A program made the translations under genes and the position numbers. Of a stretch of 64,000 nt of DNA, positions 56,540-60,218 are shown in pieces. The DNA is from Synechococcus sp. AG-673-F03 (GTDB lineage Bacteria; Cyanobacteriota; Cyanobacteriia; PCC-6307; Cyanobiaceae): assembly GCA_003211205.1 (NCBI GenBank), contig QCTJ01000004.1, forward strand, positions 1-64,000. Reading direction: 5' to 3'. How positions within the stretch are numbered: position 1 is the first letter of the stretch; every line of letters starts with the position of its first letter. The notes under the pieces are model-generated. The model saw only the letters and a list, made by a program, of their open reading frames with translations. It searched no databases and was not told where the DNA came from.

Positions 56540-56588
56540 TCAGCGATGTCTGTCTGAAGGAGTCCATCAGCTCCACTTGAAGCGCTCC

Positions 56589-57182
56589 ATGAACAGACAG
56601 CAGATCAGACGCAATGCACGGGTTGAACATCACATTCAGGTTGTGGAACCGCTGGCCAGACATTACGCGGCAAAAAGTGGTCAAGACCCAGACGACCTTC
56701 TGCAGGTGGGCTTGATGGGGTTGCTGAGGGCTGCTGAAGGCTATGAAGGCCAAAGGGAGATTCCTTTCTCAGCCTTTGCTCGACCCCATATCCGAGGGGC
56801 GATCCTGCATTATGTGCTGGACAAAGTCGCGATCATTCGGCTTCAGCGAGCGCTGCAGAACAGCAATCGGGATGTCGGTGCCGGTTTTAATGCAGCCACT
56901 CAGCAACGTCGATTGGTGCTACTGGACGATTACCTGGTCAGCCAAGAGACTGACCCCACGAGTGAACTGGATCGAAGGGAGCATCTGAGGCAGCTCACTC
57001 AGGCGCTACAACGACTCTCAAGACAGGAGCGGACTGCGCTTGAGCAAGTGATCCTCAAAGGGCAAAGTTTGTGAGATGTGGGTAATCAATCCGGTGTGAG
57101 CGCGATGACCATTCAACGTCGAGTGAAGCGTGATCTTGCCCAGCTGCGTCAACAACTAACAGTTCAGTTGGAACCGACCTGA
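56589..57182 (+). pseudogene. Sigma-70 family (group 3-like) factor interrupted by an in-frame TGA in region 4
   Basis: A short sigma factor. Region 2 is intact: VEPLARHYAAKSGQDPDDLLQVGLMGLLRAAEGY, then FARPHIRGAILHYVLDKVAII. The C-terminal region 4 begins LTQALQRLSRQERTALEQVI, LKGQSL, and is then stopped by TGA at 57072-57074. The same frame continues for 35 codons as DVGNQSGVSAMTIQRRVKRD, LAQLRQQL, to TGA at 57180-57182. That is the rest of the helix-turn-helix; one CGA (arginine) changed to TGA explains it. The truncated product would lack the -35 recognition helix. ATG 56589 is chosen; a TTG exists at 56577. Confidence 0.75.
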
Positions 57183-57480: not shown

Positions 57481-59100
57481 GTGTCTCACCGAATCCCACT
57501 ACTGGTCTTGATTGGCGTCTCGACTGCGACGGTCGCGAGCGAATTTGCGAGACCTGTTGAGGCCTATGTTCCCTTGATGGCTGGTCAACGAGCAAGGGCT
57601 CTGAATGGCCGCTTTAACAATGTGCCCGTTCTTCACTCCAATCAGCCGGAGATTGTCAAAGGGCCAGGGATTCTTGTAGATACTTCGCCTGGCAGTTCAA
57701 TTGCTGCCGAAACCAACCAACCGCTGAAGAACTCCACATTCACATTCAATGGTGAATTTGGGGTTCATATGCATCACAAATATTACCCACAGGATTCCAG
57801 CAAACTGGGAGGCCGCAGAGCCCGAGGCCTGTTGACTGTTGCTGCCATTGCCATCAACCCCGGCACAACACCCGTTACTTTGCGATTCAAAAGAGGTTCT
57901 GTCAAAAATAGTTTTGAAGCTCCATATCACCCCAACAAATTGATGGGAGTGAAGCCGTTAGGCCCCAGACCTTGGAACACGGGGCCTGGAGATGCTACGG
58001 CAGTTCAGATTCTTCGTGGCGAACTGGATCGCAATCTTTCAAGAGAAGTTGTGATTCCTCCTAACAGTCGCAAAGTAATTGTGAGCACGGTTCTTCCCGC
58101 TCGCGGAATCATGAATGGCCTTCTGCGTGGCAACAGCAACGGCCCCTTCCAAATTGCTGTAATTGCAGCTGAAGAAACCCAAGACGAAGATGCACTGATC
58201 GCTGTGCTTGATCGTGGACGACTTGCACCAGGAAGAATTTATCTCAATCGTATTCGTGAGATTCAGTCAGGACAAGTGTTCTCCCGCGTTGCAGGAGTTG
58301 CACTTGGCGATGAGTATAAAGCTTCAATTCAGCACGATCTCTCTCAAGGCTCATTGCATGTGCCTTTGACCAGCACACGAAAGCATCATTTCGGTACTCG
58401 AGATATTCAGGTCAATCAACTCAGTACCCGCATGGTGGATTCAGCTGTCAATAATGTTGGCACTTACGGAGTCCGTTTTGATGTTGATCTGAATCTTGCC
58501 GGCGAGGGTGCTCATGAGCTTGTTCTCAGTCATCCTGTTGCTTCGGGTCGTTCTCCATTTACAGCCTTCCGTGGATCAATCGGCATCAAGACTGAACTGG
58601 GATATCAAGAAGTCCATGTTGGTATGCGCTCCGGACAGAGTCTTTCCATTGCCGATCTAGATCTCAAACGTGGATCCAACAACCCTGTCACGGTGAGTGT
58701 CGTCTACCCAGCCGATGCCACGCCGGGTCACTTGCTCAGCGTGGTTCCAGTGACGCAGCTGGCCATGCTGCGTGAGCGTCAACAAATGTTGAAAGCCGCC
58801 CGTAAGGCGCAGGCCGAAGCCAAGGCGCGCAGGGTCAAGCCAGAAGTGGCTCCACCTGCTGTCAATGCGCAACCTGCACCTGAAGTGATGCCTGCTACGC
58901 CCGTTGCACAGCCAACTCTGCAGCCTGTCAGAACCACTGCAACTCCCCCACCACCTCTACTCGTGGCTCCCAGGGGTGGCACCAGTGTCATGACTCCTGC
59001 AATGATAATACCGACAAGAGTGAACAGCAGCCTCGAGCAGCGTTACCGTGACGCCATCCGTGCCCAACAGGACTGGTTGCGTCGCCTGCAGGGTCGATAA
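57481..59100 (+). CDS. DUF3370 exported protein
   Basis: 539 residues beginning at GTG 57481. A signal peptide (LLVLIGVSTATVASEFA) is followed by the typical cyanobacterial DUF3370 body: MAGQRARALNGRFNNVPVLHSNQPEIVKGPGILVDTSPG, VHMHHKYYPQDSSKLGG, VRVA-like GVALGDEYKASIQHDLSQG. The C-terminal 100 residues are low-complexity (VAPPAVNAQPAPEVMPATPV, PTLQPVRTTATPPPPLL) and end in RYRDAIRAQQDWLRRLQGR. Location probably outer envelope. Function unknown. Confidence 0.8.
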   Translation: MSHRIPLLVLIGVSTATVASEFARPVEAYVPLMAGQRARALNGRFNNVPVLHSNQPEIVKGPGILVDTSPGSSIAAETNQPLKNSTFTFNGEFGVHMHHKYYPQDSSKLGGRRARGLLTVAAIAINPGTTPVTLRFKRGSVKNSFEAPYHPNKLMGVKPLGPRPWNTGPGDATAVQILRGELDRNLSREVVIPPNSRKVIVSTVLPARGIMNGLLRGNSNGPFQIAVIAAEETQDEDALIAVLDRGRLAPGRIYLNRIREIQSGQVFSRVAGVALGDEYKASIQHDLSQGSLHVPLTSTRKHHFGTRDIQVNQLSTRMVDSAVNNVGTYGVRFDVDLNLAGEGAHELVLSHPVASGRSPFTAFRGSIGIKTELGYQEVHVGMRSGQSLSIADLDLKRGSNNPVTVSVVYPADATPGHLLSVVPVTQLAMLRERQQMLKAARKAQAEAKARRVKPEVAPPAVNAQPAPEVMPATPVAQPTLQPVRTTATPPPPLLVAPRGGTSVMTPAMIIPTRVNSSLEQRYRDAIRAQQDWLRRLQGR

Positions 59101-59135: not shown

Positions 59136-60218
59136 ATGAGCGGCAAGCGCATCAGCCTGGAATTACCCGAGGAGCTCGTCGACCAGATTGATCAGCTTCG
59201 CAAAGATTGGAAGACTCGTTCCAGGGGGGAATGTCTTCAACGGTTGCTTGAGGAAATCTTTCAGCCCGATCTTGATCAGGATGAGTCGCCCGGTTCACTG
59301 ATTGATCCACTAATTGATCAGTCTTCCGAGGGCACGGCGGAGCCAGCTGATTCTGAAGCTGCTGATGGTTCCAAGGCTTTGCTTGCTCCACAACCGATCC
59401 AACAGCCTCAGTACGATGAGGATCGAGCCATCGTTTTAGTTGGTTCAGCTGGGGGATTAGAGACGACAGGTCAGGACGATGACCGTCTCGCCCCTACACG
59501 ACCAACAACACGCAGTGAATCCCCTACGGGGGTTGGTATTGATCTGCCTGGTTTCGTTCGCAAGCGCAGCACTGCGATTCGCGAAAGCCTCACGCCACAG
59601 AATCAACCCAACACCGAGATTCCCGTTGTTCCGGTGATCAGTGATCAGCAGATCAAGGATTGGTTTGAAGTTGCTCTCAACCATTGGCTCAATCTGTATA
59701 GTTCCAACCCTGGCCCCACCGTGATGGAGGCTGTGATGTTGTGGATGGCTCGTGATATCTGGCCCCATATCGATGGATCCGAAGGGCGCACATTCACTTG
59801 GAGTCAGGTCAATCACTCCATGACCGAATTCTGCAAAAGCTGGATGGTTCCTTCTCCTCGCTTTGAGCAGGTGATCGTTGCTGCCGCTGTTCTTGAGGAT
59901 CCCTTTGCCAGCGCTTCAGTGCCAGACCGAATCCCAACGCTGATTCGTCGTTTCGTGAGTCGCTTCAAGCGCAGCCGTAAGGTCACATCCTTCGAAACGC
60001 TTGAGTCCACGATGACTCTGCATGGTGCGCTGAAACAACTTGAGTTGCCCACGCAGGCTGGCCAATCGTTGACATTGCGCTCGATCCGCGACGCCTACAA
60101 GCGCAAAGCCGTTGAGGTTCACCCTGACTCGGGAGGTTCAACCGATGCCATGCGCCGACTGAACGAGGCTTATCAGATGCTGAAAGAGCTTTATCGCCAG
60201 AAAGAACTGTCTCAGTAG
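59136..60218 (+). CDS. Ribbon-helix-helix-like protein fused to a C-terminal J-domain
   Basis: 360 residues with an unusual layout. Residues 1-45 (RISLELPEELVDQIDQLRKD, then SRGECLQRLLEEIF) look like a CopG/Arc ribbon-helix-helix DNA-binding domain. Residues 45-165 are acidic and low-complexity. Residues 168-285 form a helical, tryptophan-rich domain (KDWFEVALNHWLNLYSSNPG, EAVMLWMARDIWPHI). Residues 310-357 are a J-domain with HPD at 329-331 (VEVHPDSGG) and LNEAYQMLKELY. The J-domain should stimulate an Hsp70, so the protein could link DNA or an assembly to DnaK. Function unknown. Conserved J-proteins of similar size occur in marine cyanobacteria, to my recollection. Confidence 0.8.
   Translation: MSGKRISLELPEELVDQIDQLRKDWKTRSRGECLQRLLEEIFQPDLDQDESPGSLIDPLIDQSSEGTAEPADSEAADGSKALLAPQPIQQPQYDEDRAIVLVGSAGGLETTGQDDDRLAPTRPTTRSESPTGVGIDLPGFVRKRSTAIRESLTPQNQPNTEIPVVPVISDQQIKDWFEVALNHWLNLYSSNPGPTVMEAVMLWMARDIWPHIDGSEGRTFTWSQVNHSMTEFCKSWMVPSPRFEQVIVAAAVLEDPFASASVPDRIPTLIRRFVSRFKRSRKVTSFETLESTMTLHGALKQLELPTQAGQSLTLRSIRDAYKRKAVEVHPDSGGSTDAMRRLNEAYQMLKELYRQKELSQ

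Follow-up and report, generated by a model that had tools for sequence, protein, structure and literature searches.

The gene at positions 59136-60218 of the forward strand in the 64,000-nucleotide stretch of DNA that we analysed (the window) encodes a real, conserved and lineage-specific class C J-protein, in which a ribbon-helix-helix (RHH) domain and a J-domain, each conserved across relatives, are lastingly linked in one chain. This class C J-domain protein of picocyanobacteria (here the RHH-J protein) probably works as a DNA-anchored recruiter of Hsp70. The coordinates and the length of 360 residues agree with the preliminary description of the window, which was also correct in placing the RHH domain at the N-terminus and the J-domain at the C-terminus, an order that is kept across the family as judged from Pfam matches, an AlphaFold model and comparison with structures of NikR, CopG and J-domains. 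The model, which was built from 21 sequences and represents a single chain, contains helices at residues 12-25 and 30-42, a disordered linker, a set of helices within residues 139-279 and the terminal J-domain. The features of the gene are:

59136-60218, + strand: whole gene (open reading frame), 360 residues; RHH domain, acidic linker, helical middle domain, J-domain
59136-59270, + strand: RHH domain, residues 1-45, with a strand at about 4-10 and helices at 12-25 and 30-42 (Pfam RHH_1, model against NikR and CopG, invariant residues)
59271-59534, + strand: acidic linker, residues 46-133, low-confidence and variable in length (pLDDT mostly below 50; highest dN/dS of the four regions)
59412-59441, + strand: linker motif YDEDRAIVLV, residues 93-102 (E95, V100 and L101 invariant, 32/32)
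59535-59591, + strand: motif GIDLPGFVRKRSTAIRESL, residues 134-152, with a predicted helix at 139-152 (I135, L137, P138, F140 and V141 invariant, 32/32)
59628-59981, + strand: middle domain, residues 165-282, all-helical and tryptophan-containing (pLDDT mostly above 90 when predicted alone)
60012-60215, + strand: C-terminal J-domain, residues 293-360 (Pfam DnaJ in 21/21 relatives; structural matches to Tim16 and polyomavirus T)
60120-60128, + strand: HPD motif, residues 329-331 (32/32 non-redundant relatives)

For the single protein, Pfam DnaJ matched residues 312-351 at 28.0 bits against a cut-off of 27.8 (E = 2.4e-6), and Pfam RHH_1 matched residues 5-39 at 20.5 bits, exactly the gathering score (E = 4.5e-4). 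Since both scores were marginal, we scanned relatives with Pfam, and at E <= 1 DnaJ was matched in all 21 diverse relatives and RHH_1 in 17 of the 21, the best RHH_1 match reaching 4.4e-7. The J-domain was also recognised by its structure, a J fold in which HPD lies between helices II and III: residues 293-358 of the model aligned with Tim16 (Z 10.4) in a second look at the Foldseek candidates from the PDB, and the J-domain of polyomavirus T aligned with residues 293-360 (Z 8.1). Thus, the preliminary description was right about a J-domain with HPD at the C-terminal end, but its length of 50 residues was too short, the domain being nearer 68 residues (293-360). The residues through which DnaJ contacts DnaK are R22, K26, R27, K48 and K51 (PMC8215388). 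In our own residue alignment, with conservation scored over 32 non-redundant relatives, R22 corresponds to R318 (31/32, with K in the remaining one), K26 to K322 (29/32, R in the rest) and K48 to R340 (32/32); K51 corresponds to N343, and the equivalent of R27, position 323, is not kept (R in 12/32 and K in 3/32). The protein contains only two cysteines (33 and 233) and hence no CxxCxGxG zinc finger, no DnaJ C-terminal domain was matched in Pfam or NCBIfam scans, and the NCBIfam models of the DnaJ family matched within residues 313-358 only, at 12-17 bits against cut-offs of 338-403. These results bear out the earlier statement that neither a zinc finger nor a DnaJ substrate domain is present, and with a J-domain at 293-360 and two cysteines the protein is neither a class A or class B DnaJ nor a CbpA.

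The proposal that residues 1-45 form a CopG/Arc-type domain is upheld both by Pfam RHH_1 and by structural overlay. In the second look at Foldseek PDB candidates, residues 3-47 of the model aligned with NikR (Z 6.4, 45 aligned residues, 2.1 A) and residues 2-46 with CopG (Z 5.7, 44 aligned residues, 2.6 A), Z values that are middling and come from a small domain; the matches listed over residues 1-50 include NikR, CopG and CdbA. When the N-domain profile alone was compared with the PDB by sequence, no RHH chain was matched; therefore, the sequence support for the RHH assignment comes from Pfam, and the fold comparison provides independent support. DSSP assigned no strand to this region of the monomer model. 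The strand of an RHH domain pairs solely with that of the partner chain to form a two-stranded sheet between chains, so a monomer model cannot show this sheet. The overlay on strand-helix-helix structures distinguishes the region from a plain helical hairpin, and far from being unconserved, the N-terminus contains four residues (D19, R28, R30 and G31) that are invariant in 32/32 relatives. Three of these (R28, R30 and G31) fall where the second helix begins, the usual site of contact with the DNA backbone in RHH proteins. Related picocyanobacteria also contain stand-alone RHH mini-proteins of about 50-60 residues that match the N-domain profile, two of which pass the Pfam RHH_1 cut-off, and these are possible heterodimer partners of the N-domain:

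L140, 440-631, - strand: stand-alone RHH mini-protein
L141, 450-776, - strand: stand-alone RHH mini-protein
L142, 316-567, + strand: stand-alone RHH mini-protein
L143, 401-556, + strand: stand-alone RHH mini-protein
L144, 196-543, + strand: stand-alone RHH mini-protein
L082, 1510-1734, - strand: stand-alone RHH mini-protein

The region between the two terminal domains consists of a linker and a helical domain, as the preliminary description had held. The linker (residues 46-133) is indeed acidic, with 18 D/E against 5 K/R in 88 residues, and pLDDT is mostly below 50 over residues 44-133. Embedded in it is the motif at 93-102, which takes the form (Y/F)DExxA[IL]VL[VI] in most members, and directly after it lies the motif at 134-152, which follows the pattern GIDLPGFVxRR... 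across relatives; both probably either mediate interactions or belong to the fold. Six of the seven tryptophans of the protein fall within residues 134-292, where helices are confidently predicted, in keeping with the tryptophan-rich helical domain described earlier. Predicted alone, this middle region has a confident core, with blocks of pLDDT 88-97 across residues ~174-273. At E 0.001 its fold was matched by neither PDB nor viral entries, and T4 gp55 (in an RNA polymerase complex), the best second-look candidate, was rejected at Z 3.9, which is below a meaningful level. When 292 genomes of the phylum were searched with a profile of the middle domain, the only hits outside its own family (f1) were two weak ones (18.9 and 17.4 bits), which we took to be chance matches; one of them, L109, resembles an alpha/beta hydrolase on visual inspection. 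The middle domain is therefore lineage-specific and without a recognised fold.

Searching for the same domain order across cyanobacteria, as had been suggested, showed the full-length architecture to be confined to a single family, f1, which going by named loci comprises Synechococcus, Prochlorococcus and Cyanobium. Of 223 near-complete genomes in this family, 210 had a match to the family profile with an E-value of 1e-30 or lower, and each of these held one full-length copy; among 291 genomes of the class full-length matches occurred in f1 only, and the matches listed outside f1 covered the J-domain alone. No viral copy of the whole architecture was found, the one viral match being to the J-domain only. 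Because a single full-length copy is present in such a large fraction of the family, the fusion of the RHH and J-domains in one chain is not due to chance. All three folded domains are under strong purifying selection: in 13 pairs, in some of which dS is saturated, dN/dS was 0-0.10 for the J-domain, 0.02-0.20 for the RHH domain, 0.04-0.17 for the middle domain and 0.15-0.58 for the linker. The gene is absent from 13 of the 223 genomes, including all seven of genus g152. In genomes G421 and G372 and in three genomes of g152 the neighbours (apa2 or ApcF, and pheT) are present and the gene is missing, and G296 has a decayed copy at the matching site (L079, 4126-4566) with frameshifts and no middle domain, in which two RHH-side pieces and one J piece lie in different frames. 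Loss or decay in several lineages shows that the gene, though nearly universal in the family, is dispensable.

In most of 28 loci the gene order is apa2, a sigma factor, a small ORF, DUF3370, the RHH-J gene, a phycobilisome subunit that we take to be ApcF-like, an rlmD-like methyltransferase and pheT. These neighbours give no pointer to a role in chaperone function or replication, and genomic context was set aside as a functional clue, the order being conserved yet the functions mixed. Co-loss with the rlmD-like neighbour was likewise uninformative, since genome G121 keeps the RHH-J gene yet lacks the rlmD-like gene. The gene directly upstream, which encodes the DUF3370 protein (window 57481-59100), is kept in Synechococcus and Cyanobium loci and missing from Prochlorococcus loci L007-L010. 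In these four loci the phycobilisome gene is missing as well, and the RHH-J gene still lies between apa2 and the methyltransferase; its staying in place without these two genes speaks for a function that does not depend on its neighbours. No Rfam match was found around the RHH-J gene. The sigma-70 region 2 ORF further upstream (window 56577-57074, + strand) stops where its closest relative, L001, has an arginine and continues into a region-4-like stretch, and the frame in the window stays open past the stop to ~57180. Other residues differ from L001 as well, so this sigma factor gene may be decaying or have been misread.

A J-domain stimulates DnaK on a nearby client, and the rest of the protein brings that client. 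Since the rest of this protein consists of an RHH domain and a helical domain, targeting to DNA by an RHH dimer is the most economical reading. By analogy with the RHH fold, the N-terminal domains of two chains would pair and bind DNA, and the flexible acidic linker of ~90 residues would allow the rest of the chain to reach away from it. The helical middle domain would bind a client or a signal, and the C-terminal J-domain would offer its HPD motif to DnaK and so trigger the hydrolysis of ATP, the target being either a client kept at the DNA or the RHH dimer of the protein itself. DnaK is known to act on DNA-bound proteins (RepA, RepE, RctB and lambda O-P-DnaB), and we infer that the RHH-J protein most likely serves DnaK-dependent promoter control or the remodelling of a complex bound to DNA. 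More tentatively, the protein could be a dedicated DNA-targeted Hsp70 recruiter whose lineage-specific domain senses a signal or holds a client, so that one polypeptide would couple the state of protein folding to a promoter or to complexes on the chromosome. Prochlorococcus and marine Synechococcus rank with the most abundant phototrophs, and despite their streamlined genomes nearly all of them retain the RHH-J protein. If its RHH end binds DNA, this protein would by itself connect DnaK to a site on the chromosome.

The main rival to a DNA-anchored recruiter, rather unlikely in our judgement, is that the RHH domain is a dimerisation module only, so that a dimeric, soluble J-protein would use its middle domain to bind a dedicated client and would pass this client to DnaK away from DNA. 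The RHH strand is consistent with this reading, since position 9 is acidic (E or D) in 22/32 relatives and position 5 is non-basic in 7/32, and from these residues contacts with DNA may be weak or unlike those of CopG. In addition, the middle and J-domains are the best conserved parts of the protein, and no operator-like repeat stood out by eye in upstream alignments of five groups. Against this rival, the second-helix start is invariant in 32/32 relatives while much of the helices varies, and the related stand-alone mini-proteins of the same bacteria resemble ordinary CopG-type proteins. The lack of a visible operator-like repeat counts against an autoregulatory stress sensor, in which DnaK recruited in cis would act on the protein's own RHH dimer and set its activity as a repressor, much as in the HspR-DnaK pair. 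RHH proteins are typically repressors, and Hsp70 converts dimers of DNA-binding initiators, RepA for example, into monomers. A further precedent is the description of DnaK as the HspR corepressor in the title of a reference cited in PMC2687793; nevertheless, in close relatives of the window the RHH-J gene begins ~35 bases past DUF3370, and we consider such a sensor improbable.

It is more improbable still, to the point of being far-fetched, that the protein is a nucleoid or division factor in which GIDLPGFVRKR mimics the C-terminal peptide of FtsZ and competes for FtsZ partners while the protein is bound to DNA. A motif of the FtsZ-peptide type, [DR][IL]PxF[LV]xxR, which would be a putative binding site for FtsZ partners, is present and conserved at residues 134-152. 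In six relatives the C-terminus of FtsZ reads IPEFLR[LQR]RQ (e.g., IPEFLRQRQ), which is similar to LPGFVRKR, the pattern [IL]PxF[LV]xx[RK] occurs once in the 26,000 residues of window ORFs, and five positions of the motif are invariant. However, the likeness is short, was spotted post hoc and is internal to the chain rather than C-terminal, the model places residues 139-152 in a helix beside the middle domain, and position R142 varies (R in 24/32). In the genome of the window itself, whose assembly is 81% complete, no FtsZ was found.

The activity suggested in the preliminary description, recruitment of Hsp70 to DNA or to a nucleoprotein complex, would suit the anatomy of the protein. That description knew of no bacterial example, which was too strong a statement: class C J-proteins, in which the J-domain may lie anywhere in the chain, can carry DNA-binding domains among their extra domains (PMC8215388), and CbpA is associated with the nucleoid (PMC4063869). 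What appears to be undescribed so far is the architecture of RHH, helical and J-domains and its lineage-specific middle domain. In the literature searched we found no description of this arrangement; of the work that contains the relevant terms together, one paper concerns the Myxococcus RHH protein CdbA and separate PilZ-DnaK chaperones, and another Nostoc proteomics. Like the class C J-proteins of E. coli (DjlA, HscB and DjlB/C), the RHH-J protein has only the J-domain in common with DnaJ, and it would share with the class the use of other domains, including DNA-binding ones, for targeting. The literature examined, which takes in the survey of Barriot et al. 2020 through its citation in PMC8215388, makes no mention of an RHH domain joined to this middle domain; that survey may list one. 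A C-terminal J-domain is itself not rare in cyanobacteria, because two other kinds of protein also end in one (L075 and L076 of ~280 residues, and L104-L107 of ~510-560 residues). These likewise have HPDxGGS and NEAY motifs, but their N-terminal regions are unrelated to the RHH-J family and have no RHH match.

CbpA (curved DNA-binding protein A, class B) consists of a J-domain followed by DnaJ-type C-terminal domains, whereas no domain of the latter type was matched in the RHH-J protein, whose putative DNA-binding element is a dedicated RHH domain. The two would be alike in combining a DnaK co-chaperone with DNA binding and association with the nucleoid: in E. coli CbpA acts as a co-chaperone of DnaK, binds DNA and is one of the major proteins of the stationary-phase nucleoid (PMC4063869). 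They differ in that the J-domain of CbpA is N-terminal (PMC4063869) and that of the RHH-J protein C-terminal. The RHH-J protein resembles CopG/Arc/NikR regulators in its N-terminal strand-helix-helix and, as in NikR, has a large C-terminal effector region, which is a metal-binding ACT domain in NikR and ends in a J-domain here. HspR is MerR-like and has no J-domain. With the HspR-DnaK pair of Streptomyces the RHH-J protein would share the principle of a DNA-binding protein that works with DnaK, except that in the RHH-J protein the recruitment of DnaK would sit in the same chain.
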